Shown here: positions 4,601 through 32,093 of the stretch, piece by piece
How the letters are laid out: every line of letters starts with the position of its first letter
Position numbering within the stretch: the first letter of the stretch is position 1
NCBI GenBank assembly: GCA_015654705.1
Contig: JAATGL010000293.1
Span: 1-32,606 of the forward strand
Length of the DNA stretch: 32,606 nt
Direction of reading: 5' to 3'
DNA from: Alphaproteobacteria bacterium
GTDB lineage: Bacteria > Pseudomonadota > Alphaproteobacteria > Micropepsales > Micropepsaceae
Made by a program: the position numbers and the translations under genes
The notes under the pieces: model-generated
Seen by the model: only the letters and a program-made list of their open reading frames with translations
Databases searched by the model: none
Told to the model about the DNA's origin: nothing

Positions 4601-5500
4601 ATGGATCTGCTCCTCAGCCTGGAAGCCTTTTGTTGTGTCGCCGAAACCGGCAGCCTGACGGCCGCGGCGCGGCGTTTGGGGGTGGCGAAATCCGTCGTGA
4701 CCACGCGCGTCCAGCAGCTTGAAGGGCGCCTTGGGGTGCCGCTTTTTCATCGTTCGTCGCGGGCGATGAAATTGTCGGAACTGGGCGGAAAATATTATGT
4801 GGAATGCCAGGAAATCCTGACCCGCACGGACGAACTCACATCGCGGTCCCGCTCCGACGAAAAACAGTTGAGCGGAACGCTGTTCATTCAGGTCCTTCCG
4901 GGCTTCGCGTTGAACGGATTTTCCAGGGCGCTTGCCGATTTCGCGCGGCTGCATCCGGGCCTCAGATTCGAGATCACGGTGAGTGACCAGCTTGTCGATC
5001 CGGTTCATGCCGGCCTTGACCTGGTTTTCCAGATATATCCTCCGGTCTCGGACGCCTTGATCGAGCGGCGCCTCTTCGCGCATGACGGCGTCTTCTGCGC
5101 CTCGCAGGATTATCTGAATGGGGCGCCGCCTCTGGAGACGCCGGAGGACCTCACCCTGCACCGCTTTTCACGCTATTCGTATTATCCGTGGGGTGACAAA
5201 TGGCCCTTGCGGCGCGGCGATACGCTCATCAAGCTGCATTTAAGGCCGATTCTGAAGACCAACAGCGTTCACCTGCTCCGGGACTTCGTGCTGTCCGGTG
5301 CTGGTGTCGCCTATCTGCCCACCGCCATCATCTCCGGCGATCTGCGCAGCGGCAAGCTGGTACGGCTGCTTAACAACTACGTCGCGCCGCAGCTTTGGTT
5401 GTCCGCCGTCTATCCGATCTCCCATCGCTCGTCCGGAAAGATGAAAGTCTTCCTGGATTTCATCAGCAAGCGCTTCTCGGCGGGATATCAGGAGAATTGA
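4601..5500 (+). CDS. LysR-family transcriptional regulator
   Basis: This 299-residue LysR-type regulator has an N-terminal winged helix-turn-helix (about residues 3-62: LEAFCCVAETGSLTAAARRLG, then VTTRVQQLEGRLGVPLFHRSSR) and a two-lobed effector domain from about residue 90. It is divergent from the exported-protein gene and lies upstream of the ligD operon, so those genes are the likely targets. The effector is unknown. Its 3' end overlaps the convergent sigma-factor gene by 13 bases. No strong ribosome-binding site precedes the ATG, but the domain begins right at it. Confidence 0.9.
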   Translation: MDLLLSLEAFCCVAETGSLTAAARRLGVAKSVVTTRVQQLEGRLGVPLFHRSSRAMKLSELGGKYYVECQEILTRTDELTSRSRSDEKQLSGTLFIQVLPGFALNGFSRALADFARLHPGLRFEITVSDQLVDPVHAGLDLVFQIYPPVSDALIERRLFAHDGVFCASQDYLNGAPPLETPEDLTLHRFSRYSYYPWGDKWPLRRGDTLIKLHLRPILKTNSVHLLRDFVLSGAGVAYLPTAIISGDLRSGKLVRLLNNYVAPQLWLSAVYPISHRSSGKMKVFLDFISKRFSAGYQEN

Positions 5501-6219
5501 GTGTCCCGGTGGGGCGACTTGCTGGCGGAGGACGAATTGTTCTCTTCCAGGTTCAACAATTGCGAAAGGCGGATTTTCGCCCGGTAGATCCGGCCTTCGA
5601 TCGCCTTCGGGCTGATGTTCAGGACCTCTCCCGCCTCGATGTGGGAAAGGCCTTCGATCGCGACGAGAATGAGCGGCTCCCGGCAGGAGCGGGGCAGGGC
5701 ATCGATGGCATTGCGGACGCGCTTGAGGTTCTCGTCTTCGATAAGCCCGGTCTCGGCGGACATGACGGGGTCGGCAGGCTCAACCTCAGGCGAAACGGAA
5801 CTCCACGGTTGAATGAAGCGCCGCACCATCATGCGCCGCGCGCGGTCGCGGCATTTGTTGAGCGCGATGCGCCTGAGCCAGATCGGGAAGGACCGGTTTC
5901 GGTCGTAACCGGAAATTCCGTTCCACACTGCGATGAAGCTTTCCTGCAGGACGTCCTGGGCGTCTTCGGCGTCGCGGACGTGGCGGCGCACGAAGCGATA
6001 GAGCCAGGATTTGTGCCGGCGCATCAACTCGCCGAACGCCGCCTGGTCTCCGGCCTGCGCGGAGTCGGCAAGAGCGGCATCCGTCGCCTCGGACACGGGC
6101 ACCGAGCGCAGCATGTCGCGACTTGCGCGGACCGGAGGGAGCGACGATCGTGGCATGGCCTCGTCTCGCGAGCGCATCAACCCGTCGGGGAGAGACAATC
6201 CGGTCGTCGCGCCGGCCAT
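5488..6219 (-). CDS. ECF-family RNA polymerase sigma factor
   Basis: This extracytoplasmic-function sigma factor has sigma region 2 (ALADSAQAGDQAAFGELMRRH ... DAEDAQDVLQESFIAVW ... FPIWLRRIALNKCRDRARR) and region 4 (LPRSCREPLILVAIEGLSHIEAGEVL ... IEGRIYRAKIRL). The LNKCRD pattern resembles CnrH-like sigma factors. The start chosen, ATG at 6217-6219, shares one base with the stop of the hydrolase gene (TGATG) and has GGAG 11 bases upstream, giving 243 residues. Starts at 6177, 6156 or 6114 are possible, since region 2 begins only about 45 residues in. No anti-sigma gene is adjacent. Being co-transcribed with a hydroquinone dioxygenase is unusual. It may pair with the CnrY/CnrX-like genes at 29192-29944 (inference). 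Confidence 0.85.
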   Translation of the reverse strand: MAGATTGLSLPDGLMRSRDEAMPRSSLPPVRASRDMLRSVPVSEATDAALADSAQAGDQAAFGELMRRHKSWLYRFVRRHVRDAEDAQDVLQESFIAVWNGISGYDRNRSFPIWLRRIALNKCRDRARRMMVRRFIQPWSSVSPEVEPADPVMSAETGLIEDENLKRVRNAIDALPRSCREPLILVAIEGLSHIEAGEVLNISPKAIEGRIYRAKIRLSQLLNLEENNSSSASKSPHRDTQFS

Positions 6220-16199: not shown

Positions 16200-16272
16200 G
16201 ATTGGTTCGGGGAAGCCAAACGTCTGGCGGCTTTACACGACGGTTGGGTATTTCAATTATCACATCCAAACA

Positions 16273-16300
16273 GCGTCGTCACATCACGGTGTGACGACGC
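16273..16300. repeat. Perfect 11-base inverted repeat
   Basis: GCGTCGTCACA (16273-16283) and its exact reverse complement (16290-16300) flank a 6-base loop. As DNA it is a 28-base palindrome suited to a dimeric regulator. As RNA it would form a very stable hairpin. There is no T-run. The TCACA/TGTGA order is opposite to the CRP consensus, so CRP is not indicated. Confidence 0.6.
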
Positions 16301-16313
16301 GCGCAACGCAGAT

Positions 16314-16358
16314 GATCGTTGCGATAAACGATCGCGCTTCGACTCAGAAAGCGCGATC
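16314..16358 (+). promoter_or_regulatory. Two mutually exclusive leader stem-loops
   Basis: Stem A pairs GATCGTT (16314-16320) with AACGATC (16327-16333). Stem B pairs GATCGCGCTT (16330-16339) with AAGCGCGATC (16349-16358). They share bases 16330-16333, so only one can form at a time. Stem B ends 2 bases before the GGGGGAG ribosome-binding site of the TonB receptor. This geometry could allow a switch in the leader, or it could be two DNA-binding palindromes. Confidence 0.45.
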
Positions 16359-16374
16359 AAGGGGGAGATGGAAG

Positions 16375-19227: not shown

Positions 19228-21026
19228 TGCGCAGGTCGGTTGCCCTTCTGAGCGTCGGCGCCGGGGCGTTTGCCATCGGCGCCTCGCTCGCCCAGGGGGC
19301 TTCGCCCCCGCGGCGCGCCGTGCCGACGACATCGGGTTCGCCTGCCGAGGCTTGTTCGTCTCTGATCGCGCAAAACGGCAAGAATGCCTTTCCCAACGCG
19401 ACCACGGTCATCAGTTCGGCCGTCTATCGTGAGGCCGCGCCGGCGGCGAACGGCACGCCGGCGCATGCGGCGCATTGCGAGGTGCTCGGAACCATCAATT
19501 CCCGCGTCAGCACGGTGGATGGCCAGTCCTACGCCATCAAATTCCACATGCGCCTTCCCGTTGCGTCGGCATGGAACGGGCGTTTCTTCTTTGAAGGCGG
19601 CGGCGGCTATAACGGCCGCCTGAGCGAGGCGTTCGGGCCGCTCGGCGGTCGCCAGCCCGATGACGGCCTGTCGCTGGGCTTCGCGGTCGTCTCGACCGAT
19701 TCCGGCCACGACAACAAGACCAACAACAATCCCGACGCCGGCGGCCCGCTTTCCTTCGGCGGAGACCCGCAGGCGCGGTCCGATTTCTTCTACAATTCCT
19801 ATGGCGAGGTGACGCGCGTCGGCAAGGCGCTGGTGCGGCTCTACTATGGCCGCGGCGCCAACAAATCGTATTTCGTGGGATGCTCGGAAGGCGGCCGCGA
19901 AGGCCTTTTGATGTCGCAGCGTTTCTACGACGAGTATGACGGCATCATTGCCGGCGATCCGGTGTTCCGCTCGATCTATTGGAGCTATGCCAGCATCCGC
20001 AATGCGCAGGTCCTGACCGATCTGGCGAAGAAGGAGGGGCTCGTCTCCGGCGATGCGGAAGCGCCGCTGAACAAGACCTTCAGCGATCTCGATATCGACG
20101 TCGTCGCGAAAGCGGTCTTGAAAGCCTGCGATGGTCTGGACGGCCTCGAAGACGGACTGGTCGGCAATCCCCAGGCCTGTACGGACGAGAAGATCTATCC
20201 CAGGCTGGATGAGATCACCTGCAGCGGCGCCAAGAACGACACGTGTCTCACCCACGACCAGATAAAAGCCCTCAAGGATATCGAAGCCCCGGTGTTGAAC
20301 GCGCGGGGAGAGGAGATCTCGGCGGGGAATGTGCTCGATCCGGGCATGGCGGGGGATTCGGACAAGGGGCTCAATGCCGCGTGGCACACCACGATGCTGG
20401 GCGTCTTCGGCGCGCCGCCGGGCAATCCCGCCGCCGTTTCCGGCAAGCTCTCGATGGTCGAGGAAGCCGTTCCGATGCTGTGGATCACGCCGCCTCGTCC
20501 GGTCGCGGCATCCGAAAGGCTCAAATACGTCCTGAATTACGACTATTCCCGCGCCGATCCGGATGCCGCCAGGGACTACCCGGCATCGGGAATCTTCACC
20601 GAGGCGCCCGGTCTCTATGCGCCTGCGGACTCGACCGATCTGACGGGCTTCAAGTCGCGCGGCGGAAAGATGATCGTCTATCACGGCGTCGGCGATCCCT
20701 CCGTGCCCTACACCGAAACGGCGAAGTGGTACGCGCGGATGAACGCGCGCATGGCAGCGTCTGGCTTTGTCCGGCTCTTCCTGGTGCCGGGCATGAATCA
20801 TTGCACCGGAGGCCCGGCCACCGACAGATTCGATCTGCTGACGCCTCTGGTGAACTGGGTCGAGAAGGGAACGCCGCCCGACCAGATCACGGCGGAAGCG
20901 TCGGAACCGTCCTTTTTCCACGTCGCGCATCGCAGTCGGCCGCTCTGCCCCTATCCGCAATGGCCGCATTATCTGGGAGACCGCGACGTCAACGAGGCTT
21001 CGAGTTTCGTTTGCAGACAGAACTGA
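19227..21026 (+). CDS. Tannase/feruloyl esterase family hydrolase
   Basis: This 599-residue secreted esterase has a signal peptide (about residues 1-23, ending SLAQG). It carries the full CS-D-HC pattern of tannase-family enzymes: Cys219-Ser220 in GCSEGG, Asp490 in GVGDPSVPY and His525-Cys526 in NHC, where the two Cys residues bridge Ser and His by a disulfide. FFEGGGGYNG forms the oxyanion region. Family members release gallate, ferulate or related acids, and some hydrolyse terephthalate-type esters. The exact ester cannot be told. Translation is probably coupled to the TonB receptor by TGATG. The Rieske oxygenase starts 85 bases downstream, so the freed acid may go straight to ring hydroxylation. 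Confidence 0.9.
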   Translation: MRRSVALLSVGAGAFAIGASLAQGASPPRRAVPTTSGSPAEACSSLIAQNGKNAFPNATTVISSAVYREAAPAANGTPAHAAHCEVLGTINSRVSTVDGQSYAIKFHMRLPVASAWNGRFFFEGGGGYNGRLSEAFGPLGGRQPDDGLSLGFAVVSTDSGHDNKTNNNPDAGGPLSFGGDPQARSDFFYNSYGEVTRVGKALVRLYYGRGANKSYFVGCSEGGREGLLMSQRFYDEYDGIIAGDPVFRSIYWSYASIRNAQVLTDLAKKEGLVSGDAEAPLNKTFSDLDIDVVAKAVLKACDGLDGLEDGLVGNPQACTDEKIYPRLDEITCSGAKNDTCLTHDQIKALKDIEAPVLNARGEEISAGNVLDPGMAGDSDKGLNAAWHTTMLGVFGAPPGNPAAVSGKLSMVEEAVPMLWITPPRPVAASERLKYVLNYDYSRADPDAARDYPASGIFTEAPGLYAPADSTDLTGFKSRGGKMIVYHGVGDPSVPYTETAKWYARMNARMAASGFVRLFLVPGMNHCTGGPATDRFDLLTPLVNWVEKGTPPDQITAEASEPSFFHVAHRSRPLCPYPQWPHYLGDRDVNEASSFVCRQN

Positions 21027-21111
21027 GAATTGCGGCTTTGGTGGGAGATGTCGGCCTGCCGCGCCGTCCATGTGAACGGACGCTCCTCGCCGTGACGGCC
21101 GGAGGGAGACC

Positions 21112-22443
21112 ATGACGCCGAAGAATGCGGACGCGCTGATCGACGACCGGCCCCAGGACAAGGTCTTCGGGGTCGACCGGTCCGTTTTCACCGACGAAGC
21201 GGTCTTCCAGGACGAGTTGCGGCTGATCTTCGAAGGCACCTGGGTGTTCGTCGGGCTCGAGACGCAGCTTCCGCGCCCGCACAGCTTCTTCACGACTCAC
21301 ATCGGCCGCCAGCCCGTTCTGGTCATGCGCGACGGCGAAGACAAAATCGGCGCCTTTCTCAACACCTGCCGGCATCGTGGCCTGATCCTGTGTCCGTTCC
21401 GGCGCGGAGACCAGAAATTCCATACCTGCCGCTATCACGGCTGGACCTACGATTCGTCCGGGCGCAACGCGCTGGTGACCGACCGGCAGGTCGGCCAGTA
21501 CACGCCGCGCTTTGCGCAATTGGACCACGATCTCGTCCGCGTCCCGCGTCTCGCCGGCTATCGCGGCCTGCTTTTCGCCAGCTTGAATCCGGACGTTCCG
21601 GATCTTGAAGAGCATCTGGACGAAGCCAGGACCTTCATTGACCTGGTGCTCGATCAGAGCCCGGTGGGGCAGGTCGAGTTTGTCCCGGGCGATGTGACTT
21701 ACACCTTCCAGGGAAACTGGAAGCTTCAGTTCGAGAACGGGCTCGATTTCTATCATTTCCAGTCGACGCACAGCGCCTATCTCGACATCGTGGCGAAGCG
21801 CTTCGCCGAGGGAACCGCGGGCGCGCTCAGCGCCGAGCCCGAACAGGAAGCGCCGGTGCAGGGCAGTTTCAACTTCCGCCACGGCCACGCCGTCAACTGG
21901 TCGATCAAGAACACGGACAATGCATCCGGCCGCAAGCCGCTGCGGCTGGAGGTCGACGCCGTCCGCGCGCGGGTGGGCGCCACGCGCGCAAAATGGATGC
22001 TGCGGCAACGCAATCTGACGATTTTTCCCAATCTCCAGATCATCGACGTGCAATCGATGCAGCTGCGGACCTGGCGGCCTCTTGCGGTCGGCGTGACCGA
22101 GATCACGTCCCATTGTCTGGGCATCGTCGGCGAAAGCGCCGAGGCCCGCCGCCTGCGCATTCGCAACTATGAGGACTTCTTCAATCCGACCGGCCTGGCG
22201 TCGTCCGACGACAATCTGATGTTCGAATATTGCCAGGACGGCTACGCCGCCGAAGCCGGGCCGACACAGGGCTATGAACGGGGCCTGGCGTCGCGGCCGG
22301 ATGGCGCGGCCGACTATGCGGCCGAACTCGGCATCTCGCCCGTCGAAAGCGCCGTCGGCGAATTGTTTTTCGGCGGCGAAATGAATTTCCTTCCCGGTTA
22401 TCGTGAGTGGCGCCGTTTGCTGTCGCGGGGAAGGAATCGATGA
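21112..22443 (+). CDS. Rieske ring-hydroxylating dioxygenase, alpha subunit
   Basis: This 443-residue catalytic subunit hydroxylates an aromatic ring with O2. The Rieske [2Fe-2S] ligands are Cys86, His88, Cys106 and His109 (CRHRG ... CRYHGW). The mononuclear iron site is Asp212-X2-His215-X4-His220 (NGLDFYHFQSTH), with a further acidic ligand probably in SSDDN. The layout resembles the benzoate/anthranilate dioxygenase group. The substrate is unknown. The tannase-family gene upstream suggests a benzoate- or cinnamate-type acid. A strong GGAGGGAG site precedes the ATG. The beta-subunit gene overlaps by four bases. Confidence 0.93.
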   Translation: MTPKNADALIDDRPQDKVFGVDRSVFTDEAVFQDELRLIFEGTWVFVGLETQLPRPHSFFTTHIGRQPVLVMRDGEDKIGAFLNTCRHRGLILCPFRRGDQKFHTCRYHGWTYDSSGRNALVTDRQVGQYTPRFAQLDHDLVRVPRLAGYRGLLFASLNPDVPDLEEHLDEARTFIDLVLDQSPVGQVEFVPGDVTYTFQGNWKLQFENGLDFYHFQSTHSAYLDIVAKRFAEGTAGALSAEPEQEAPVQGSFNFRHGHAVNWSIKNTDNASGRKPLRLEVDAVRARVGATRAKWMLRQRNLTIFPNLQIIDVQSMQLRTWRPLAVGVTEITSHCLGIVGESAEARRLRIRNYEDFFNPTGLASSDDNLMFEYCQDGYAAEAGPTQGYERGLASRPDGAADYAAELGISPVESAVGELFFGGEMNFLPGYREWRRLLSRGRNR

Positions 22444-22955
22444 CCCCGGCATCGGTGGACCCGGCCCTGCGGGCGCTGGCGGCCGATCTGCTGTTCCGGG
22501 AGGCGGACGCGCTCGACAATCAGGACTGGGCGAACTGGCTGGCGATGTATCGCGAAGATGCGCGATACTGGGTTCCGGCCTGGATCGACGAACACAGGAC
22601 GACCGCCGATCCGGACACCGAGCTTTCCCTCATCTATCACACGACGCGGCGCGGGCTCGAAGAGCGGGTCGGCCGCATACAATCGCGAAAATCGATCACG
22701 GCGACGCCGCTCCCCCGCACGCTCCACCTGATCGCCGGCCTGACGATCGCGGAGGCCGATACGGAGGCGATGCGCGTGCGGTCGAACGCGGCGGTCCATG
22801 TCTACGATGCGCGGACCGCGGCGCACCACGTCGCCGCGCTGCGCTATGAGCATTCGTTCCGCTGCGCGCCCGGCGGCGGCTGGCTGATCGCGGCAAAGAC
22901 GATCGTCCTGGTCAACGACCGGATGCCCAGCGTGGTGGATTTCTATGCCCTGTGA
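22440..22955 (+). CDS. Ring-hydroxylating dioxygenase, beta subunit
   Basis: This 171-residue small subunit has the NTF2-like fold of dioxygenase beta chains: LLFREADALDNQDWANWLAMYREDARYWVPA near the start, the RI.SRKSITATPLPRTLHLI segment, and a C-terminal KTIVLVNDRMPSVVDFYAL. It has a structural role in the alpha3-beta3 hexamer. The ATG at 22440 overlaps the alpha stop (ATGA). A start 33 bases earlier lies inside the alpha gene and is not needed. Its 3' end overlaps the ferredoxin gene by 11 bases. Confidence 0.92.
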   Translation: MTPASVDPALRALAADLLFREADALDNQDWANWLAMYREDARYWVPAWIDEHRTTADPDTELSLIYHTTRRGLEERVGRIQSRKSITATPLPRTLHLIAGLTIAEADTEAMRVRSNAAVHVYDARTAAHHVAALRYEHSFRCAPGGGWLIAAKTIVLVNDRMPSVVDFYAL

Positions 22956-23301: not shown

Positions 23302-23327
23302 ACCCTCAGCCTTGTTCGCAGGGTCAG
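23298..23327. terminator. Weak stem-loop between convergent genes
   Basis: CTG-ACCCT (with one bulged A) pairs with AGGGT-CAG across a 13-base loop. It lies in the 22-base gap between the ferredoxin stop and the HupE/UreJ stop. It could end transcription from both sides, but there is no T-run on either strand. Confidence 0.3.
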
Positions 23328-24520
23328 GCGTAGCTGCGGCTGATGAACCAGAAGACCCCGATACAGACGAGAAAGGCGGAACAGACATCCGTGACGATCG
23401 GGCGGGGCAGGGCGAGCTTCATCTTTACCATCAGATAGACGATCAGGCTCACGCCGAGCACCAGGCTGAGCTGGCCCACTTCGACACCGGTGTTGAATCC
23501 CACCAGCAGTTCCGCGAGCCGGCCGGTCGGCAGGCGCATCTCCAGAAGGCTGGAGGCAAAGCCGAAACCATGGATCAGGCCGAATACCAGCGTAACGACG
23601 ACACGCAGTCGCGCCGCGTCCTGAAGATGGCCGGTGATCATCAGGTAATTGCCCGTGAACAGCCCGGCGCCCAGCAGCAGCAACGCCGGCAATCCGCCCA
23701 GGCCCGCGACCTGCATGATGGCCATCACGACGAGCGTGCCACCGAACGCGAGCGCGATGGTGCCGGGCCGCCGCAGGGAGACGGCGATGTTCTCCGCTCC
23801 GATCAGCGCGATGGTGAGCGCCACCAGCGCGTCGATATATTCGGGATGCGGGCGCACGATGCCGGTGACGGCGAGCGCCAGCGTCGCGCTGTGTCCGAGC
23901 GTGAAGCCCGTGACGACGAAAGCGAGATCCTTCAGCCGCCGCGAGATCAGGATCAGGCCGAGCAGGAACGACATGTGGTCGACGCCCGTCAGGATGTGCC
24001 TGATTCCCAGGCCGACATAGGAGAAGAAGCTCGCATTCTGCAGCGGATTGTCGCCGTTGACCGATGCGCTGAGCGTGGTCTGGTCGCCGGTGAAAAGCTG
24101 CTCGACGAAGGAGCCGTCGCCGGTGACGATCTGGGCGTAGTTGATATGCGACGGGACGATGTCGAAGAACGCCTTGTCGATCAGGAAAATTTCCTTCCCC
24201 GGCGCGCAGGCATAGGAGAACTCGAAGCGGCTGTAGCCTTGCGCCGCCGAGCCCTTCTCCGGCCCGTAGGCTATGGCGCATGGCTTGCCCCCGGCGCTCG
24301 CGCCCAGGCGCTTGAGGAGATAGTCGCCGACCATCTGGTCGGTCGGATTCCGGCCCGGCGGCGTGAGGCGTTTGGCTTCCTGGTCTGGCACCGTGAAGGT
24401 GAGATCGACGGTGGAGCCGGCTATGTGCCAGGCGGAATGCGTCTCGCTCAGCGTGTGCGCGTTTGCCAGCGCCGGCATGAGCAGCGCCGCGGCCAGCGCA
24501 AGAAAAGCAAGGACCTTCAT
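23324..24520 (-). CDS. HupE/UreJ-family membrane protein
   Basis: This 398-residue protein has a signal peptide (ending LANA), a periplasmic N-terminal domain of about 145 residues, then about seven membrane segments with the family's polar motifs: GIRHILTGVDHMSFLLG, TGFTLGHSATL, LIGAENIAV and GLIHGFGFA. Related HupE/UreJ proteins are thought to carry nickel or cobalt into the cell. For this longer, signal-bearing subgroup the cargo is not established. The mature protein would begin with His, which could bind metal. It is the last gene of a cytochrome-PPIase-HupE operon with ATGA overlaps, under a GGGAA...CGTATAG promoter-like element. Confidence 0.85.
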   Translation of the reverse strand: MKVLAFLALAAALLMPALANAHTLSETHSAWHIAGSTVDLTFTVPDQEAKRLTPPGRNPTDQMVGDYLLKRLGASAGGKPCAIAYGPEKGSAAQGYSRFEFSYACAPGKEIFLIDKAFFDIVPSHINYAQIVTGDGSFVEQLFTGDQTTLSASVNGDNPLQNASFFSYVGLGIRHILTGVDHMSFLLGLILISRRLKDLAFVVTGFTLGHSATLALAVTGIVRPHPEYIDALVALTIALIGAENIAVSLRRPGTIALAFGGTLVVMAIMQVAGLGGLPALLLLGAGLFTGNYLMITGHLQDAARLRVVVTLVFGLIHGFGFASSLLEMRLPTGRLAELLVGFNTGVEVGQLSLVLGVSLIVYLMVKMKLALPRPIVTDVCSAFLVCIGVFWFISRSYA

Positions 24521-25452
24521 TGCGCGTACCGCCTGTAACGGGGCGAGAGGAGGATGTTCGCCCGGCCCACGAGGAACTTCTCCTCATTGGCCTGCAGGCG
24601 CGCCTCGGCGTCGTTCTTGTAGTCGGTCAGCACTTTCTCCCGCGCGTCCGCAAAACTCTCCCTCACGGGCGGCGTGTTCTGGCTCACGACCAGAAGATGA
24701 TAGCCATCCGCTTGCTGGATCGGAGCCGAAACCCGTCCTGCCGCGAGCGCCGTCGCGGCCGCGAACAGCGTGTCTCCCAGATGGATCCTGGCCGCGAAGT
24801 AGAATTCCTCGCCGCTGGTCTTCTGCGTATCTCTGAGGCCGAATCGGGCGGCGGCATCGGCGATGTTCATGCCGCCGCGCAGCGCCGCCGTGGCCTGGGT
24901 CGCCGCCTGTTCGGTGCCCGCGATGAAATCGCCGACCGTGATGGAGCCTTCCGTCGCATAACGGGTGCTGTGATCGCGATAATACGCTTCAAGCTTCGCG
25001 TCGCTCGGGACGTCGGTGGTGACGTCGGCCAGCACCTGCTGTTCCACCGCGGATACCAGCGCATTGCGCGTGTCGGGATCGGATTCCGGCATGCCCAGTT
25101 CCAGGCCGCGCTGGACATAGACTTCCTCGCGGATCATGTCGTGCAGAACCTTGCGCTTCTGCTGCTCGCTCGCCTTGTCGGACGTCAGGCCGTAGAGCGT
25201 CTGAATCTGGGCGTCGAAATCGACCGCCAGGATCGGCTGCTGGTTGACCAGGGCCACGTCCTCGGTCGGCACGAAGTCCACCGTCGTGCCTTTCGAGGTG
25301 AAAAGGCCGAAGCCGGCGATCAGAAGCCCCAGCACGGCGCCGGTGCCGAGCAGAAGGAAGGCCCGCCGCGGATTGGTCTGGGAAAAGGATTTCCACAGCC
25401 AGTCCTTCTCTCTCGGTTTTCTACCGCGGACCTTGGCTTCCGTCTTGCTCAT
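24517..25452 (-). CDS. Membrane-anchored parvulin-like peptidyl-prolyl isomerase
   Basis: This 311-residue protein has a cytoplasmic basic head, one membrane segment (about residues 31-52, AFLLLGTGAVLGLLIAGFGLF) and a periplasmic SurA-like part. That part has a helical chaperone region (KRKVLHDMIREEVYVQRGLELGM), then a parvulin domain with FAARIHLGDTLFAA and QQADGYHLLVV. It probably helps fold its operon partners or an outer-membrane protein. The ATG at 25450-25452 overlaps the cytochrome stop. The longer frame to 25566 lies inside the cytochrome gene. It overlaps the HupE/UreJ start by ATGA. Confidence 0.85.
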   Translation of the reverse strand: MSKTEAKVRGRKPREKDWLWKSFSQTNPRRAFLLLGTGAVLGLLIAGFGLFTSKGTTVDFVPTEDVALVNQQPILAVDFDAQIQTLYGLTSDKASEQQKRKVLHDMIREEVYVQRGLELGMPESDPDTRNALVSAVEQQVLADVTTDVPSDAKLEAYYRDHSTRYATEGSITVGDFIAGTEQAATQATAALRGGMNIADAAARFGLRDTQKTSGEEFYFAARIHLGDTLFAAATALAAGRVSAPIQQADGYHLLVVSQNTPPVRESFADAREKVLTDYKNDAEARLQANEEKFLVGRANILLSPRYRRYAQ

Positions 25453-26249
25453 GGTGCTGTTCCAGATGGTTGCGATGCGGCTGGCGCCGCATGCGAGCGG
25501 TCGTTGACGAGGACGGCGAGGGCGCGGATTTCCAGCGGCGTCAGCCTGCCCTGCCATGCGGGACACACGCCGGCATGGCCTTCGGCGATGGAGCGGAAGA
25601 CGGAGCGCGGCGAGCCGTCACCATACAGCCAGATATTGTCCGTCAGATTGGGGGCGCCGACCTCATGATCGCCGCGGGCATCGGGCGTGTGGCAATCGTA
25701 GCAGGCCCCCTTGTCGGTATAGAGGCGCGCCCCACGCGCGACCGCGCCGGGCTCCTGGCGCCGGCCGCCGAGCGAAAAGATATAGGCCGACACATCCCTG
25801 ATCTCGGCGGGGCTCAGGGCCTGGAGTTTCTCCTTTGTGTCGTTGGGCCGCACGAAGGAGGGCATGAAGGCAAGATTGCGCGCCTTCGGGTTCCCGGAGC
25901 GAATCCCATAGGTGACGGTGTACTCGATCTCGGACACATGGCCGGAGCCGTAGAGCCAATCGTCGTCGACCAGGTTCGCGGCGCCGAGATCGGCCTTGCC
26001 CTTCATGTCCGCCCCATGGCAGCTCGCGCAGTTTTCCGTCCAGAGCGGCCGCGCCATGGCGTTCGCATAGGCGACGAGCCGGGGATCCTGCGGCACCAGG
26101 TCCGGGTCCGTCGTCAGCAGTGCATCATCCATGACCCAGACATAGGCGATCCAGGCGATACCGGCGACGATCAGCAGCCCGGCCCCGATCAGAGCCACGC
26201 GCCGCAAGAACCATCGATCCAGGGCCGTGTCGCCTGTCCTGCGCGCCAT
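25449..26249 (-). CDS. Membrane-anchored diheme cytochrome c (CcoP-like)
   Basis: This 266-residue protein has an N-terminal anchor (about residues 18-40) and two cytochrome c domains with heme motifs CASCH (74-78) and CYDCH (183-187). The arrangement recalls CcoP of cbb3 oxidases. The first domain has the expected axial Met (AFMPSF, Met129). In the second, the matching position reads GVCPAW, so Cys229 replaces Met. A Cys-ligated heme would have a low potential and could sense or resist full reduction. No oxidase subunit is nearby, so it probably serves another periplasmic electron path. It is first in the operon with the PPIase and HupE/UreJ genes. Confidence 0.88.
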   Translation of the reverse strand: MARRTGDTALDRWFLRRVALIGAGLLIVAGIAWIAYVWVMDDALLTTDPDLVPQDPRLVAYANAMARPLWTENCASCHGADMKGKADLGAANLVDDDWLYGSGHVSEIEYTVTYGIRSGNPKARNLAFMPSFVRPNDTKEKLQALSPAEIRDVSAYIFSLGGRRQEPGAVARGARLYTDKGACYDCHTPDARGDHEVGAPNLTDNIWLYGDGSPRSVFRSIAEGHAGVCPAWQGRLTPLEIRALAVLVNDRSHAAPAASQPSGTAP

Positions 26250-26294: not shown

Positions 26295-26320
26295 CTATAC
26301 GCATCGCCGTGCCGCTTCCC
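26295..26320 (-). promoter_or_regulatory. ECF-type promoter-like motif, cytochrome operon
   Basis: On the minus strand, GGGAA (26316-26320), 14 bases, then CGTATAG (26295-26301), 45 bases before the cytochrome ATG. It mirrors the element at 26388-26413. The two also share AAGGGA and CGATGCGTAT in the same relative positions. The same bipartite pattern recurs at 27494 and 29983. Confidence 0.6.
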
Positions 26321-26387
26321 TTCGATGCCGGTCCGTTCTGCGTCCGGCGGCCCCAAGAAACGGCCAAAAAACGCAGCCTGCCGACAA

Positions 26388-26413
26388 GGGACAGCGCGTT
26401 TCGATGCGTATGA
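26388..26413 (+). promoter_or_regulatory. ECF-type promoter-like motif, DUF6644 pair
   Basis: GGGAC (26388-26392), 14 bases, then CGTATGA (26407-26413), 34 bases before the TTG start at 26448. It shares a 10-base identity (CGATGCGTAT) and AAGGGA with the divergent element at 26295-26320, at identical spacing. Confidence 0.6.
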
Positions 26414-26447
26414 CCTTCCGAGAAGAACTTCCGACACGGGGCCGGTT

Positions 26448-26951
26448 TTGAATCGCTTTATTTCTCTGCTGGCGGGCACCGATCTGAGCCAGGCGATACA
26501 GAATTACGAATGGATCATCCCGACGATCCAGTCGATTCATATCCTTGCGGTTTCCATCGTTCTCTCCTCCGTTGCAATGGTGGTGCTGCGCCTGATGGGC
26601 AAGGCGGGATTGCGCACCTCGATCGCCGATACCGTCAAACGCTATGTGCCGTGGATCTGGGGCGCGATCGTCGTGCTCGCGATCACCGGCACGCTCCTGG
26701 TGATCGGGGAACCGAAGCGCGAACTGACCAATGCGGCCTTTCAGCTGAAAATGGTGATGGTGCTGGTGGGCGTGGCGATCATCGCCGCGTTCCAGATCAG
26801 CGTCGGCCGCCACCCGGAGTTCTGGAACAAAACCCCGGAGCATCGCGCAGGCCTGAAGCTGATCGCGGTCGGGACGCTGGTTCTCTTCATCGCCATCGCC
26901 GTGGCCGGTCGCTGGATCGCCTACATGATCGTCGACTATGCGGCAGCCTGA
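26448..26951 (+). CDS. DUF6644-like inner-membrane protein 1
   Basis: This is a 167-residue protein with four hydrophobic segments (SIHILAVSIVLSSVAMVVLRLM, WIWGAIVVLAITGTLLVIG, KMVMVLVGVAIIAAFQI and LVLFIAIAVAGRWIAY). The QSIHIL motif in segment 1 has a His in a membrane helix, which could bind heme or metal. The TTG at 26448 is the only sensible start, because upstream codons in frame lie in the promoter region. The ribosome-binding site is poor. It is paired with a paralogue 21 bases downstream. The function is unknown. The cytochrome-like topology and the divergent diheme cytochrome suggest an electron-transfer role (inference). Confidence 0.75.
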   Translation: MNRFISLLAGTDLSQAIQNYEWIIPTIQSIHILAVSIVLSSVAMVVLRLMGKAGLRTSIADTVKRYVPWIWGAIVVLAITGTLLVIGEPKRELTNAAFQLKMVMVLVGVAIIAAFQISVGRHPEFWNKTPEHRAGLKLIAVGTLVLFIAIAVAGRWIAYMIVDYAAA

Positions 26952-26972
26952 ACGCGAAATCCGGACAGCGAC

Positions 26973-27467
26973 ATGAGCATCGACGCCATCCTGGAAGCGA
27001 TTTACAATTGGCCGATTTCGGCGGCGATCCGGACGGATTATTTCTGGTTTCCGTTCCTCGAATCCGTCCACGTCGTCTGCATCTGCCTGGTCGTCGGGTC
27101 GATCTTCGTCGTGGATTTGCGGCTTCTCGGGATCACCTCCAACAAGAAGCCGGTCACCGAGCTGGCGAAGGAGGTCCTGCCATGGACCTGGGGCACGTTC
27201 GTCATCGCCGTGATCGCCGGCACGCTGATGTTCATGTCCAAGACAACCAATTACTACGCCGACGATTTCTTCCGCTACAAGATGGTCTTGATCGTGCTGG
27301 CCGGCGTCAACATGGCCGTCTTCCATCTCTTCACCTACAGAAGCGTGGAGAAATGGGACCGCGACGTTCCCACGCTGCTGGGCGCCAAGCTGGCCGGGGG
27401 ATTTTCCCTGCTTTGCTGGATCGGGGTGGTGTTCTGCGGCCGCTGGATCGGCTTCACCGTGATCTAG
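26973..27467 (+). CDS. DUF6644-like inner-membrane protein 2
   Basis: This 164-residue membrane protein has four hydrophobic segments and is clearly related to the preceding protein: WFPFLESVHVVCICLVVGSIFVVDLRLLG aligns with its first helix, PWTWGTFVIAVIAGTLMFM with the second, and GRWIGFTVI with its GRWIAYMIV end. The helix-1 His (ESVHV) is conserved between the two copies. They probably form a heterodimer. Translation starts at ATG 26973, 21 bases after the first gene's stop. Function unknown. Confidence 0.8.
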   Translation: MSIDAILEAIYNWPISAAIRTDYFWFPFLESVHVVCICLVVGSIFVVDLRLLGITSNKKPVTELAKEVLPWTWGTFVIAVIAGTLMFMSKTTNYYADDFFRYKMVLIVLAGVNMAVFHLFTYRSVEKWDRDVPTLLGAKLAGGFSLLCWIGVVFCGRWIGFTVI

Positions 27468-27493
27468 CGCCGGCTTTTTCCACCACCGTTCGT

Positions 27494-27520
27494 GGGAAGG
27501 GCGTCGGCGCGCACGTATAG
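27494..27520 (+). promoter_or_regulatory. ECF-type promoter-like motif, DUF6152 operon
   Basis: GGGAA (27494-27498), 15 bases, then CGTATAG (27514-27520), about 83 bases before the ATG at 27604. Spacing is one base longer than in the other three copies. A TGGTG/CACCA palindrome (27530-27542) lies just downstream, in the position of an operator or early leader hairpin. Confidence 0.55.
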
Positions 27521-27603
27521 CTTTGGAAGTGGTGTGCCACCATCTCGGATGTGGCGAATGGGTGCCGCTTGGGGCGGACGATCGGTCAGGAAGGAGCAAC
27601 AGG

Positions 27604-27999
27604 ATGAAATTTGTTTTCGGTACGGCAGCGATTGCCTTTGCGCTTGGGCTTGGCGCGATGCCGGCTCTTGCGCACCATTCCGCCGCGATGTTCGACCATC
27701 AGAAGAAGGTCACGCTGAGCGGCAATGTGAAGGAGTTCCAGTACACCAATCCCCACTCCTGGCTGCTGGTCATGGTCAAGGGCCAGGACGGCAAGCCGAC
27801 CCTGTGGAGCTTCGAGGCCGAAGGCCCGAGCACGCTGCTGCGCGCGGGCATCAAGTTCTCGACCTTCAAGCCGGGCGACAAGGTGACCATCATCGCCAAC
27901 CCGATGAAGGACGGCCGCCCCGCCGGCGCGCTGCTCCAGGCGACCAAAGCCGACGGCACGGTGTTCAGTCCGCGTCCGTCGGGGCCGATCAAGAGCTGA
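27604..27999 (+). CDS. DUF6152-like periplasmic protein
   Basis: This is a 131-residue exported protein. The signal peptide (MKFVFGTAAIAFALGLGAM) would be cut after PALA, leaving a mature N-terminus of His-His-Ser, or Ala-His-His if cut one residue earlier. Either could chelate copper or nickel. The domain is a small beta-barrel: KKVTLSGNVKEFQYTNPHSWLLV, WSFEAEGPSTLLRAG and GDKVTIIANPMKDGRPAG. It recalls OB-fold DUF6152 proteins found near TonB receptors in Alphaproteobacteria. AAGGAG lies about 9 bases before the ATG. The maleylacetate reductase follows after 26 bases. Confidence 0.82.
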   Translation: MKFVFGTAAIAFALGLGAMPALAHHSAAMFDHQKKVTLSGNVKEFQYTNPHSWLLVMVKGQDGKPTLWSFEAEGPSTLLRAGIKFSTFKPGDKVTIIANPMKDGRPAGALLQATKADGTVFSPRPSGPIKS

Positions 28000-28025
28000 T
28001 CCTCCGTCCGCCGGAATGGGAGGCA

Positions 28026-29090
28026 ATGAGATATTTTTCTTATACCGGCCTGCCCAGCCGGGTCATCTTCGGTGCCGGCGCGCTGGCGCGTGCTGGTGAG
28101 GAAGTGGGCAGGCTGGGCTGCGGCCGGGCGCTGCTGCTCTCGACGCCGGAGCAGGAGCCGGCCGCACGCGCCCTGGCCGCGCAGCTCGGCGATCTGGCCG
28201 TCGGGGTCTTTGCGGGCGCCTTGATGCACACCCCGGTCGCCGTCACCGAGACCGCGATGGAGGCCGTGCGCTCCCTGGGCGCCGATTGCACCGTAGCGCT
28301 CGGCGGCGGCTCGACCATCGGCCTGGGCAAGGCGATCGCCCTGCGTACCGACCTGCCGCAGATCGTCATCCCCACGACCTATGCCGGCTCGGAGGCGACG
28401 CCGATTCTGGGCGAGACGAAGGACGGTCTCAAGACCACAGAGCGCAGCCTCAAGGTGCTGCCGGAAGTCATCATCTACGATGTGGAGCTGACCTTGACGC
28501 TGCCGACCGGCTTGACCGCGACGTCTGGCATGAACGCGATCGCGCACGCGGTCGAGGCGCTCTATTCCCAGGACGCCAATCCGGTCACGTCGCTGATGGC
28601 GGAAGACGCGGTCGCCACGCTGGCCCATGCGCTGCCGGACATCCTGCGCGATCCGCAGGATAGGCAGGCGCGGTCGGAAGCGCTGTACGGCGCATGGCTT
28701 TGCGGTATCTGCCTGGGCACCGTCGGCATGTCGTTGCATCACAAGCTTTGCCACGTGCTGGGCGGTACCTTCGACCTGCCGCACGCGGAGACCCATACCG
28801 TGGTGCTGCCGCATGCCGCGGCCTACAACGCGCCGAACGCGGCGCCGGCCATGCAACGGCTGGCGCGGGCGCTCGGCGTGAAGGATGCGCCGCGCGGATT
28901 GTACGATCTGGCGGTCGGGCTGGGCGCGCCGACGTCGCTCAAGGCGCTCGGCATGCCCGAAAGCGGCATCGATCGGGCGGCCGATCTGGCGCTGGCCAAT
29001 CCTTACTGGAATCCGCGCCCGCTCGATCGGGACGCCATCCGCTCCCTTCTCGATGATGCCTGGCACGGCCGTCCGCCGTCCTTGAATTAA
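28026..29090 (+). CDS. Maleylacetate reductase
   Basis: This 354-residue iron-alcohol-dehydrogenase relative reduces maleylacetate to beta-ketoadipate with NAD(P)H. Seen are the short N-terminus RVIFGAGAL typical of maleylacetate reductases, the nucleotide loop ALGGGSTIGLGKAIAL, the active-site region PTTYAGSEATPILGETKDG, and the His-rich GMSLHHKLCHVLGG and LPHAETHTVVLPH. It fits directly after the LinE-type dioxygenase at 6866 and before the CoA-transferase at 32123, as LinF does in the lindane and hydroquinone pathways. It appears co-transcribed with the DUF6152-like gene (26-base gap, GGGAGG ribosome-binding site). Confidence 0.93.
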   Translation: MRYFSYTGLPSRVIFGAGALARAGEEVGRLGCGRALLLSTPEQEPAARALAAQLGDLAVGVFAGALMHTPVAVTETAMEAVRSLGADCTVALGGGSTIGLGKAIALRTDLPQIVIPTTYAGSEATPILGETKDGLKTTERSLKVLPEVIIYDVELTLTLPTGLTATSGMNAIAHAVEALYSQDANPVTSLMAEDAVATLAHALPDILRDPQDRQARSEALYGAWLCGICLGTVGMSLHHKLCHVLGGTFDLPHAETHTVVLPHAAAYNAPNAAPAMQRLARALGVKDAPRGLYDLAVGLGAPTSLKALGMPESGIDRAADLALANPYWNPRPLDRDAIRSLLDDAWHGRPPSLN

Positions 29091-29117
29091 ATATGGAGCC
29101 GCTGAAGCCCGTCTCGC

Positions 29118-29123
29118 TATAAT
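29118..29123 (+). promoter_or_regulatory. Consensus -10 before the anti-sigma gene
   Basis: A perfect TATAAT lies 68 bases upstream of the ATG at 29192. No good -35 is present at 16-18 bases. This unit therefore looks read by the housekeeping sigma with an activator. It lacks the GGGAA...CGTATAG motif of its neighbours. Confidence 0.4.
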
Positions 29124-29191
29124 GTGTCGACCTGACGCGCCGGAAGCGCGGCGGGACTTCGCAAGCGGGTTTTGCGGAAAAGGAATGTTCG

Positions 29192-29476
29192 ATGGCCGAG
29201 AATCTGGATGCGCTGATCGACGGTCTTCGCGCCGGTACGTCCGCCTTGCCGCGACTGGACGGCATGGAAGCGGGCGTATGGCATGAGATCGAGCGGCGCC
29301 GGAATCTTCGCCGGCGGATGTCGGGGCGGATCCAGAGCCATTGCGCGATTGCCGTGATGGCGCTGCTGATCGGCGCGACGATGGGCTTTGTGCATATCGC
29401 GTCGCCTGTGAAGGCGCGGCACGCCTCTTTCGCCATGATGCTGACCGAACTGCCGCCCTCAACCTTGATCGAGTGA
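29192..29476 (+). CDS. Small membrane protein, CnrY-like anti-sigma candidate
   Basis: This 94-residue protein has a cytoplasmic N-terminal half of about 45 residues rich in Leu, Arg and Glu (LDALIDGLRAGTSALPRL ... VWHEIERRRNLRRRM). One membrane helix (AIAVMALLIGATMGFVHIA) and a short periplasmic tail follow. Size, topology and linkage to a CnrX-like sensor match CnrY-type anti-sigma factors, whose N-terminus holds an ECF sigma at the membrane. Sequence similarity alone would not prove it. AAGGAA precedes the ATG. No sigma gene is next to it. The nearest seen is at 5488. Confidence 0.65.
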   Translation: MAENLDALIDGLRAGTSALPRLDGMEAGVWHEIERRRNLRRRMSGRIQSHCAIAVMALLIGATMGFVHIASPVKARHASFAMMLTELPPSTLIE

Positions 29477-29479
29477 TCC

Positions 29480-29944
29480 GTGGACTGGAAAAGCACGCTC
29501 ATCGCCGCGGTGGTCGCGGCTTTCTCCGGTTTCACGGGGGCCGAACTCAGCGCCGGTCGCAACACGGCGTCGATCTCGGCGTTTCAGCCGGCAAATGAAG
29601 GCACGCTCGCGGAGACGATCAACCAGTTGCTCGAACGGCAGATCAGTCTTTCGCCGGCGCAGAAGTCGCAGGTCGCGGCGATCAACAGCCGGTACACGCA
29701 CGATCGCAACGGGCTGATGGCGAACCTTTACATGACACGCGCTCAGCTCGGCGGCGCCTTTTCTGAAAACATGACGCTGAGCGGCCCGACCAAGGATTCG
29801 ATCAAGCAGATGGAGACGATCGTGGGCGACCTGCAGACGCAGACCATCACGCATATCGTCGAGCTGCGCGACGTGCTCACGCCGGCCCAGCGCCAGATCT
29901 ACGACCAGAAAGTGGTCGAGATGCTGATGCGCGACGAGCAGTAG
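29480..29944 (+). CDS. CnrX-like periplasmic sensor with altered metal ligands
   Basis: This 154-residue protein has an N-terminal membrane anchor and a periplasmic helical-hairpin domain of the heavy-metal-sensor (Metal_resist/CnrX) family. TITHIVELRDVLTPAQRQIYDQKVVEML aligns without gaps, from memory, to the C-terminal helix of CnrX. On that alignment the CnrX ligands His42, His46, Glu63, His119 and Met123 become Asn48, Glu52, Asn69, His125 and Leu129, so only one is kept. It may sense something other than nickel or cobalt. The GTG start at 29480 lies 3 bases after the anti-sigma candidate stop, indicating a coupled pair. Confidence 0.75.
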   Translation: MDWKSTLIAAVVAAFSGFTGAELSAGRNTASISAFQPANEGTLAETINQLLERQISLSPAQKSQVAAINSRYTHDRNGLMANLYMTRAQLGGAFSENMTLSGPTKDSIKQMETIVGDLQTQTITHIVELRDVLTPAQRQIYDQKVVEMLMRDEQ

Positions 29945-29963
29945 CATCCCTCGCATGGACCAA

Positions 29964-29987
29964 TTCCCGCCGTGTGTTCCGCGGGAA
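29964..29987. repeat. Inverted repeat overlapping the receptor 2 promoter
   Basis: TTCCCGC (29964-29970) and GCGGGAA (29981-29987) flank a 10-base loop, 20 bases after the sensor stop. The right arm contains the GGGAA half of the promoter-like motif at 29983. It may act as a transcription terminator for the sensor gene, as an operator, or both. No T-run follows. Confidence 0.4.
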
Positions 29988-30008
29988 AGGGCACCGGCAT
30001 CCGTATAG
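29983..30008 (+). promoter_or_regulatory. ECF-type promoter-like motif, TonB receptor 2
   Basis: GGGAA (29983-29987), 14 bases, then CGTATAG (30002-30008), 27 bases before the ATG at 30036. Same spacing and -10 half as the element before the cytochrome operon. Confidence 0.6.
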
Positions 30009-30035: not shown

Positions 30036-32093
30036 ATGCCGGTTTCGATCGAAGGCAGGACCTGGAACGGCTGCGCTTTTCTCGTGGTAGGCATTCTTCT
30101 GAGCTTGAATGCCCGTGCCCAGAATGCGGACACGATCGAAACGGTGACGGTCACGGCCGAGCGGCGCCAGTTGCTGGGTACGGCCCTGACCTCCAGCCAG
30201 GGCGTGGTGGTCGATGACGAGCTGACCCTGACGCCGGCCTTTCGCGTGGGCCAGATGCTGGAAACCGTGCCGGGCCTGGTCGTCACCAGCCACAGCGGCG
30301 AGGGAAAGGCGAACCAGTACCTGCTGCGCGGCTTCAATCTGGACCACGGCACCGACCTGGCCGTCGGCGTCGACGGAATGCCGGTCAACGAGCGCAGCCA
30401 TGCCCATGGCCAGGGCTATGCCGATCTCAATTTCCTGGTGCCCGAACTCGCCGTCGACGAGCGGTTCACCAAGGGCCCCTATTTCGCGGAGAAGGGCGAT
30501 TTTTCCTCCGTCGGGTCGGTCGATCTGAGCTATCGCGACACGATCAACGATCAGGCGGAACTGTCCGTCGGCAGCCAGGGGTTCGAGCGGCTGTTCTCTG
30601 CTGGTTCGGCCGAAACCAGTGACGGCGTGATGTTGGGGGCGCTGGAGCTGCAGCATTACGATGGTCCCTGGGTTCACGCGGACGATCAGCGCAAGCTCAA
30701 CGCGGTGCTGCGCTACAGCGCCGGCGACGAACAGGACGGCTATTCTGTCACCGGCATGTATTACGGGGGCGTGTGGAACGCGACCACGGACCAGCCGCAG
30801 CGTGCGATCGGCGAAGGGCTCATCAGCCGCTTCGGTTCGCTCGACCCCAGCGACGGCGGCCAGGCCCAGCGCTACAGCCTTTCGGGCCAGTATCATGCGG
30901 CGCTCGGCCCGGGCGAACTAAAGGCAAACGCCTATGCCATCGCAAACCGTTTGACGCTGTGGAACGATTTCACCCATTTCCTGATCGACCCGCTGAACGG
31001 CGATCAGGAGGCGCAAACGGAAAACCGTCTCACGCTCGGCGGTGGCGCGCATTACGACGAGACGGACGCCATCCTGGGCTTCGCCAACGATCTGACCGCG
31101 GGCGTCGAGACGCGTTACGACAATGTGCATCTGGCGCATTTGCATACAAAGGATCGCATCTTCCTCGCTCTCACCGATCGGGACCGGATCCAGGAAAGCA
31201 GCATCTCCGGATATGCCCAGCTCACGACCCATTGGACAGGCTGGCTGCGCAGCGTGCTGGGCGTGCGGGAGGACTACTTCAATGCCCAGGACGGCGGCAC
31301 CAATCACGGCCACGCCGAACAGGACTTGTTCCAGCCCAAGGGCAGCCTGATCGCCACGCTATCGCCCGATGCCGAACTCTATCTCAGCGCCGGGCGCGGC
31401 TTCCACAGCGACGACGTGCGCGGCGTCACCCAAGCGGCGCAGCATGGGCTTTCCGGCGCGCCGCTGCTCGCGCGTTCGACCGGCTGGGAGGCCGGCATGC
31501 GCGAGCAATTCCTGCCCAATCTTTCGGCCACCTTGACGGCGTTCGAGATACAATTCCAATCCGAGCTGACCTACGATCCCGATATCGGCCAGACCTCGGC
31601 CGGCCCTCCCAGCCGCCGCAGGGGCATCGAGCTGAACACCACCTGGCAGGCGCTGGAATGGCTCGAACTTTACGGAAGCATCGCGGCCAGCAACGCCCGT
31701 TACACCCAGAGCACGGATGACGGCACGGGTCATATCGGCCGCTTCATTCCCAACGCCCCCGATGCGGTGGCCTCCTTCGCGGCCTATATCAAGGACCTGG
31801 GGCCGTGGGGCGGCGGTCTGGATTATCGCTATCTGGGCGCCTATCCGCTGTCGTCGGACGACCGGGTGCGGGGCAAGGGGTATGGCGAATGGAACGCGGA
31901 AATCGGCTACACGCTGCAGACGGGCTGGAAGCTCGGGATGGGCGTCTATAATATCCTCAACACGAGGGCCAATGCCGCGGAGTTCTGGTACATAGATCGC
32001 CTGCCGGGTGAGCCTGCGGGCGGCGTCGCCGATGTTCATGTCCATCCGCTGGAACCGGTCTCGGTGCGGTTCACCATCGGAAAGGCATTCTAA
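30036..32093 (+). CDS. TonB-dependent outer-membrane receptor 2
   Basis: This 685-residue receptor has a signal peptide (hydrophobic core CAFLVVGILLSL, cleavage after ARA), a TonB box (ETVTVTAE), a plug (QMLETVPGLVVTSHSGEGKANQYLLRGFNLDHGTDLAVGVDGMPVN) and a 22-strand-type barrel ending VSVRFTIGKAF. The plug loop RSHAHGQGYADLNF is His-rich and belongs to a receptor subgroup I associate with small or metal cargo; this is not certain. It is shorter than receptor 1. Its promoter-like element is shared with the cytochrome/HupE and DUF genes, and the CnrY/CnrX-like pair lies immediately upstream. A metal-complex cargo is a reasonable inference. The ribosome-binding site is weak. Confidence 0.9.
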   Translation: MPVSIEGRTWNGCAFLVVGILLSLNARAQNADTIETVTVTAERRQLLGTALTSSQGVVVDDELTLTPAFRVGQMLETVPGLVVTSHSGEGKANQYLLRGFNLDHGTDLAVGVDGMPVNERSHAHGQGYADLNFLVPELAVDERFTKGPYFAEKGDFSSVGSVDLSYRDTINDQAELSVGSQGFERLFSAGSAETSDGVMLGALELQHYDGPWVHADDQRKLNAVLRYSAGDEQDGYSVTGMYYGGVWNATTDQPQRAIGEGLISRFGSLDPSDGGQAQRYSLSGQYHAALGPGELKANAYAIANRLTLWNDFTHFLIDPLNGDQEAQTENRLTLGGGAHYDETDAILGFANDLTAGVETRYDNVHLAHLHTKDRIFLALTDRDRIQESSISGYAQLTTHWTGWLRSVLGVREDYFNAQDGGTNHGHAEQDLFQPKGSLIATLSPDAELYLSAGRGFHSDDVRGVTQAAQHGLSGAPLLARSTGWEAGMREQFLPNLSATLTAFEIQFQSELTYDPDIGQTSAGPPSRRRGIELNTTWQALEWLELYGSIAASNARYTQSTDDGTGHIGRFIPNAPDAVASFAAYIKDLGPWGGGLDYRYLGAYPLSSDDRVRGKGYGEWNAEIGYTLQTGWKLGMGVYNILNTRANAAEFWYIDRLPGEPAGGVADVHVHPLEPVSVRFTIGKAF

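Follow-up and report, generated by a model that had tools for sequence, protein, structure and literature searches.

Sites and genes of the window

The window, the whole stretch of 32,606 nucleotides (nt) that was analysed, is contig JAATGL010000293.1 of assembly GCA_015654705.1, from an alphaproteobacterium of the family Micropepsaceae. It contains four copies of a bipartite motif upstream of four transcription units (Table 1). The original prediction took these copies for promoters of an extracytoplasmic function (ECF) sigma factor that define a local regulon, a proposal supported here by the match of the sites to CnrH-dependent promoters and by their recurrence upstream of orthologous units.

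Table 1. Promoter sites, the genes behind them and the candidate regulators in the window
Feature	Position	Strand	Remarks
Promoter 1, AAGGGAAG-N12-GCGTATAG	26295..26320	-	cytochrome c, peptidyl-prolyl isomerase (PPIase) and HupE unit; matrix score 20.4, rank 1
Promoter 2, AAGGGACA-N12-GCGTATGA	26388..26413	+	two DUF6644 genes; score 14.0
Promoter 3, GTGGGAAG-N13-ACGTATAG	27494..27520	+	DUF6152 and iron-containing alcohol dehydrogenase; score 10.5, background level
Promoter 4, GCGGGAAA-N12-CCGTATAG	29983..30008	+	TonB-dependent receptor; score 16.3
Diheme c-type cytochrome, cbb3 subunit III-like	25449..26249	-	Pfam PF13442/PF00034, two stretches; TIGR00782 below cut-off
PpiC-type PPIase	24517..25452	-	Pfam PF13145
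HupE/UreJ_2 family permease	23324..24520	-	Pfam PF13795, E 4.5e-39
DUF6644 membrane protein a	26448..26951	+	TTG start; Pfam PF20349, E 3.6e-8; CopD match below cut-off
DUF6644 membrane protein b	26973..27467	+	Pfam PF20349, E 5.8e-12; helical model, pLDDT 72
DUF6152 protein	27604..27999	+	Pfam PF19649, E 7.1e-34; signal peptide by eye
Iron-containing alcohol dehydrogenase family protein	28026..29090	+	Pfam PF25137/PF00465
TonB-dependent receptor	30036..32093	+	Pfam; closest solved relatives CntO and FoxA, weak (E 3.8e-8)
CnrH-like ECF sigma factor	5488..6219	-	closest solved structure CnrH 4cxf, E 4.4e-29; next 3.4e-18
CnrY-like anti-sigma factor, 94 residues	29192..29476	+	CnrY position; one transmembrane stretch by eye
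CnrX-like periplasmic sensor, 154 residues	29480..29944	+	CnrX/NccX top solved matches, E 2.7e-7 to 1e-6; Metal_resist just below cut-off

Scanning the window with the pattern GGGAMN{14,15}CGTATR returned exactly four matches, 26296-26320(-), 26388-26412(+), 27494-27519(+) and 29983-30007(+), compared with a mean of 0.05 and a maximum of 1 in 100 dinucleotide shuffles. They are the four sites first reported, minus the final G/A. All four are correctly oriented, with gaps of 46, 35, 84 and 28 nt between the motif end and the start codon, and the two divergent copies (26295 minus and 26388 plus) have AAGGGA and CGATGCGTAT in common, as had been noted. In the 3.02 Mb genome bin the exact pattern has seven matches, four of them in the window contig, compared with five for the reversed-pattern control. 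The pattern was written from these four sites, so that the window and genome counts are post hoc and an independent test was therefore needed.

Comparisons were made with CnrYXH of Cupriavidus metallidurans, a nickel/cobalt system of the sigma factor CnrH, the anti-sigma factor CnrY and the sensor CnrX. On plasmid pMOL28, GGGAA-N14-CGTATA lies upstream of cnrC and GGGGA-N14-CGTATA upstream of cnrY, and the cnrC promoter (cnrCp) fits the window pattern letter for letter. A passage of PMC9045368 locates the transcription starts 25 nt (cnrC) and 24 nt (cnrY) ahead of the genes. With gene starts taken from the plasmid table, the motif thus ends 7 nt ahead of the transcription start in both cnrCp and the cnrY promoter (cnrYp). 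In sequence and spacing, the window motif corresponds to these CnrH-dependent promoters. EcfG-type general-stress promoters read GGAAC-N16/17-CGTT; this identity was set aside because the spacing and the -10 element differ.

A weight matrix was built from other genomes, in which homologues of CnrY, CnrX and CnrH lie together (Y-X-sigma loci, numbered with L below). A first matrix comprised 19 sites from 17 such loci plus cnrYp and cnrCp and included poor sites. For the second, six of the 17 loci with a best upstream score below 17 were dropped (L063, L068, L100, L102, L107 and L108, among which L063 and L068 still show near-matches by eye), leaving 13 sites, 11 from Y-X-sigma loci and the two cnr promoters. 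Training took the best-scoring site per upstream region, which biases the matrix toward sites resembling the motif; none came from the window, L089, L090 or L157-L161. Among distinct sites on both strands of the window, promoters 1, 4 and 2 rank first, third and fourth. At a score of at least 14 the window has four sites, three promoters and one over the sensor gene; 200 shuffles gave 0.33 on average and never more than 2. The site over the sensor gene (29924-29952, minus), which ranks second with 17.7, overlaps the 3' end of that gene on the opposite strand and is possibly a chance match or an antisense start. It reads GCGCAT where GCGTAT is expected.

The gene names first proposed were upheld by Pfam for the diheme cytochrome c, the PPIase, HupE_UreJ_2, the two DUF6644 proteins, the DUF6152 protein and the TonB receptor, whereas for the supposed maleylacetate reductase only the family, iron-containing alcohol dehydrogenase, is supported. 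The HupE/UreJ_2 permease is a possible cobalt/nickel importer, a transport function suggested by its family, and the weak solved relatives of the TonB receptor include the metallophore receptor CntO. The DUF6152 protein is probably exported; its structure model (pLDDT, the predicted local distance difference test, 52) was too poor for use. A fold search with the DUF6644 protein b model gave no match at E <= 0.001. None of the genes downstream of the four promoters was identified as an efflux pump in profile searches with Pfam and TIGR. Elsewhere on the contig, positions 9900-22955 hold aconitase X parts, a tannase/feruloyl esterase, a TonB receptor and ring-hydroxylating dioxygenase subunits, which are catabolic genes of an aromatic/plant-polyphenol type.

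A CnrH-like sigma factor and a CnrY-CnrX-like pair

According to the original prediction, no described system has this membership. The promoters belong to the CnrH group, and the window encodes a CnrH-like sigma factor and a CnrYX-like pair that had been overlooked; the gene set itself may still be undescribed. CnrH is ahead of the next solved relative of the window sigma by about eleven orders of magnitude. In region 4.2 the window sigma reads KAIEGRIYRA and CnrH reads KAVEGRIGRA. This helix, KA[IV]E.R, is found in the window sigma alone among eight sigma proteins aligned from its own genome. The bin has ten Sigma70_r2 matches, from which eight were extracted; the other two, L012 and L017, are partial or divergent and gave no match when searched with the window sigma. 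The sigma gene is the last of a glyoxalase-family, alpha/beta-hydrolase and sigma cluster (5488-7823, minus), with its ATG overlapping the stop codon of the hydrolase gene. The end of the sigma gene overlaps a convergent LysR gene.

The candidate anti-sigma factor has no Pfam match and no meaningful match in the PDB, solved CnrY included. Used as a query, it finds the gene at the CnrY position in L101, L105, L106 and L158, and it aligns with counterparts in relatives, with which it shares a PSTLL-type tail. Its putative identity as a CnrY rests on position and alignment. The CnrX match of the adjacent sensor (E 2.7e-7) spans residues 47-153. The Y-X operon of the window lacks a sigma gene, and the sigma gene lies ~23 kb away. 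Across nine genomes of the genus, each of the ten CnrX matches adjoins a homologue of the window sigma. In separate trees of sigma and X (the latter without L159), the window groups with the same set from genus g277, with support of 91/95 for sigma and 96/93 for X; a previous sigma tree, built from fewer members, supported the grouping of the window with this subgroup at 95/91. The X branch of the window is long and its exact placement is uncertain.

The metal ligands of CnrX are H42, H46, E63, H119 and M123. According to a passage of PMC7689651, Met123 is conserved across CnrX homologues and signalling depends on it. At positions H42, H46, E63, H119 and M123 the window sensor has N, E, N, H and L, so that four of the five residues are replaced. 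The sensors of the window, L089, L090, L157, L158 and the partial L159 were compared as one subgroup. M123 is L or V in all six, and H119 is Y in five, the window retaining H. In the five with data at these positions, H46 is lost in four (L157 retains it) and E63 in two. Each of the five complete sensors lacks at least two of the four other CnrX ligands besides Met123. H46, E63, H119 and M123 are retained together in 18 of 20 sequences outside the subgroup, CnrX included, the exceptions being L101 and L104. Because its ligands are mostly gone, the signal is probably not nickel or cobalt bound at the CnrX site.

Orthologous loci and genus g277

HupE matches at E <= 1e-20 were found in 14 of 96 family genomes, the own genome included. 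The closest are in G455 (55% identity) and G454 (51%), whose loci contain the cytochrome-PPIase-HupE unit, DUF6644 genes, DUF6152 and an intact Y-X-sigma; in G449 and G453, DUF6152 is divergent from Y-X-sigma. The Y-X-sigma order is intact in L089, L090, L157 and L158, and a fifth locus, L159, is cut by a contig end. Motif conservation upstream of orthologues, which had been suggested as a check, was found for Y-X-sigma in four of four loci (scores 23.5, 16.5, 19.2 and 20.1), for DUF6152 beside Y-X-sigma in four of four relatives (17.9, 14.5, 15.1 and 15.5) and for the cytochrome unit in two of four g277 loci (L089, 16.3; L090, 14.3). For all ten sites, a plausible start codon follows at a distance of 30-88 nt. 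At such scores, no separate site was found for the DUF6644 genes of L089 and L090. Among the 17 other Y-X-sigma loci, a good site precedes Y in 11. In G454 a frameshift or an assembly error splits the TonB receptor into two open reading frames (ORFs; L090:6656-8935, minus).

Eight family-level loci (L091-L098) have PPIase and HupE only. At the class level, seven of 13 HupE matches were examined; six have a PPIase, and none has a sigma or sensor match. The only locus that the HupE orthologue search yielded in named genomes is L074, in a Phenylobacterium metagenome-assembled genome (MAG), where a response regulator and a histidine kinase, named by eye, lie among the DUF6644, DUF6152 and cytochrome-PPIase-HupE genes (L074:3207-5479, plus). 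A plasmid search with HupE gave no match. The DUF6644 neighbourhoods of Novosphingobium humi and Sinorhizobium mexicanum plasmids contain no good adjoining site; the nearest is a weak one (11.8, first matrix) before a DUF6644 gene in L109. The N. humi plasmid loci L109 and L111 hold tandem DUF6644 genes near DUF6152, with neither a sigma or sensor match nor a good site, so the DUF6644/DUF6152 group also occurs under other regulation.

In six g277 genomes, GAGGG-N16/17-CGTAT has 41 sites compared with 22 for the reversed control. Thirty of these were examined as loci and four more lie in L089 and L160, with seven outside the comparison. Among the 30 loci, sites were seen before DUF6152 genes, relatives of the TonB receptor of the window (L186, E 4e-143; L195, E 4e-71), a diheme cytochrome (L183), two alike small CxxCH proteins (L178 and L182) and a multicopper oxidase (L180). 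Since the motif led to the two receptors, their sites cannot serve as independent evidence. Other sites lie inside long reading frames (e.g. L173, L181 and L191) or before genes without an evident link (L172 and L196). In G453, a site of 21.9 (L099:11006) lies 58 nt upstream of cbiM of a CbiMNQO cobalt/nickel importer (L099:8322-11034, minus). A CbiM family search found the gene in two of seven genomes, G453 and G450, both with the motif 58-72 nt upstream, and had no match in the own genome. The G453 gene had been found through the motif; the G450 fragment (L185) was found by the family search and its site, 72 nt upstream with a score of 19.8, was seen afterwards. The multicopper oxidase, among the G451 sites, may keep copper as a possible signal.

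Proposed regulation and its alternatives

The four sites are very probably the -35 and -10 elements of a CnrH-group ECF sigma factor, most likely that at 5488-6219(-), which would be gated by the Y-X pair and drive the four units. Support comes from the motif and its match to cnrYp and cnrCp, the sites at Y-X-sigma loci and at orthologous units in relatives, the homology of X and sigma and their matching clades. From these sequences we infer binding of the sigma factor at the sites, the anti-sigma action and the existence of a signal. In the idle state, the sigma factor would be held at the inner membrane by the CnrY-like protein (29192-29476), itself under the control of the CnrX-like sensor in the periplasm (29480-29944). 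A signal from the envelope would relax the X-Y interaction and free the sigma factor, which with RNA polymerase would jointly transcribe the cytochrome-PPIase-HupE, DUF6644, DUF6152-alcohol dehydrogenase and TonB-receptor units.

Several observations weigh against this assignment. The site at 27494 is at background level with the independent matrix, where scores of at least 10 were observed seven times compared with 5.1 expected. The relaxed motif has no excess across the own genome (10 matches compared with 13 reversed), so that the regulon there is, to the extent examined, a local one. Eight relaxed matches located elsewhere in that genome and the sites in L006/L007 are each covered by an ORF of at least 100 residues, which is weak evidence in G+C-rich DNA; no further target in that genome is claimed. 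Among the g277 genomes, G454 (4 compared with 5) and G451 (5 compared with 7) singly show no excess over the reversed control. Matrix scans found no site upstream of the cytochrome unit in L099 and L132, no good site upstream of Y in six of the 17 other Y-X-sigma loci, and none in L074, where the regulator has apparently changed. Unlike the relatives, the window has no site upstream of Y-X or of the sigma cluster; with the sigma gene detached as well, positive feedback is either absent or runs through other promoters. Misassembly of the bin may lie behind this arrangement. At 75.6% completeness, the bin may also lack some sigma candidates.

The incompleteness of the bin bears on the strongest alternative, a CnrH-group regulon whose cognate sigma factor is another CnrH-like gene missing from it, with 5488-6219 serving something else. 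The distance between sigma and Y-X, neither with a site, and the position of sigma behind the glyoxalase-family/hydrolase pair fit this alternative. However, sigma and X group with the same small clade in which both genes are neighbours, and the sigma at 5488-6219 is the only CnrH-like one of the eight aligned, which makes a missing cognate unlikely. That the motif is a transcription-factor binding site or part of a housekeeping promoter is very improbable: the two blocks, their spacing and position equal those of mapped CnrH-dependent promoters, and the orientation toward genes is kept in relatives. A chance likeness of G+C-rich upstream DNA picked by eye, which would suit a pattern written from its own four sites and the background score of one of them, is hardly credible given the excess of matrix sites over shuffles, even with one of the four at no promoter position, and the sites before orthologous units in other genera.

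Probable regulation by a CnrH-group sigma factor places the window beside several described systems. CnrYXH and NccYXH have homologous sigma factors and sensors and resemble it in promoter sequence and spacing and in a small anti-sigma factor, of which that in the window is a putative CnrY-like protein. In comparison with CnrYXH, the window sensor lacks four of the five metal ligands, Met123 included, the sigma gene is detached from Y-X, no site of this type precedes Y-X or sigma, and the targets are a cytochrome, a PPIase, HupE, DUF6644/DUF6152 proteins, an iron-containing alcohol dehydrogenase and a TonB receptor instead of the CnrCBA efflux system. In its sensor ligands, in gene order, in autoregulation and in the type of target the window system departs from CnrYXH, and it is therefore called a variant and not a member. 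Y-X-sigma homologues also form copper-associated operons on plasmids of Caulobacter henricii, Sphingomonas sp. HMP9 and Novosphingobium sp. ES2-1 (L067-L069), with this type of site near Y in L067 and L069 and an imperfect one in L068. These operons adjoin copA/copB/copC/copD, P-type ATPases, cueR or a resistance-nodulation-division efflux operon, and unlike the window sensor theirs retain H46, E63, H119 and M123. CnrH is placed in class ECF20. The ECF20 promoter/sigma pairs of the synthetic-switch literature, whose passages (PMC3817407, PMC10880074) name ECF20 and not CnrH, come from other organisms and were compared by class name.

Judged by its content, with HupE, the TonB receptor and, in two relatives, CbiMNQO, the regulon seems to serve the acquisition or handling of a metal such as cobalt or nickel, together with electron transfer in the envelope. 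According to a passage of PMC7689651, HupE transports cobalt in a cyanobacterium; with the weak likeness of the receptor to CntO, this makes cobalt/nickel-type acquisition a reasonable guess, no more. Tentatively, a metal-efflux alarm might have been rewired to control metal acquisition and electron transfer in the envelope. In this view, a CnrX derivative without metal binding at the CnrX site would gate a CnrH-type sigma factor whose targets are TonB uptake, HupE/CbiMNQO import, c-type cytochromes and DUF6644/DUF6152 proteins, and in the window, where the sigma supply now lies in a catabolic-looking cluster, two inputs would be needed.

A literature search for DUF6644 or DUF6152 found no paper naming either among those searched, and titles and abstracts among the matches listed describe no regulon of this make-up. 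The mechanism class is known. Compared with CnrYXH, the sensors without Met123 are new, as are the targets, which comprise cytochromes, HupE, a TonB receptor and the CbiMNQO of relatives, and the separation in the window of the sigma gene from Y-X, neither with a motif upstream. The promoter matrix is usable for locating further targets, and DUF6644, DUF6152 and the HupE_UreJ_2 permease gain a regulatory context. As a metal alarm of the periplasm, CnrYXH has been studied in detail, and the conserved Met123-less subgroup would be a natural experiment on the range of CnrX-type sensing.

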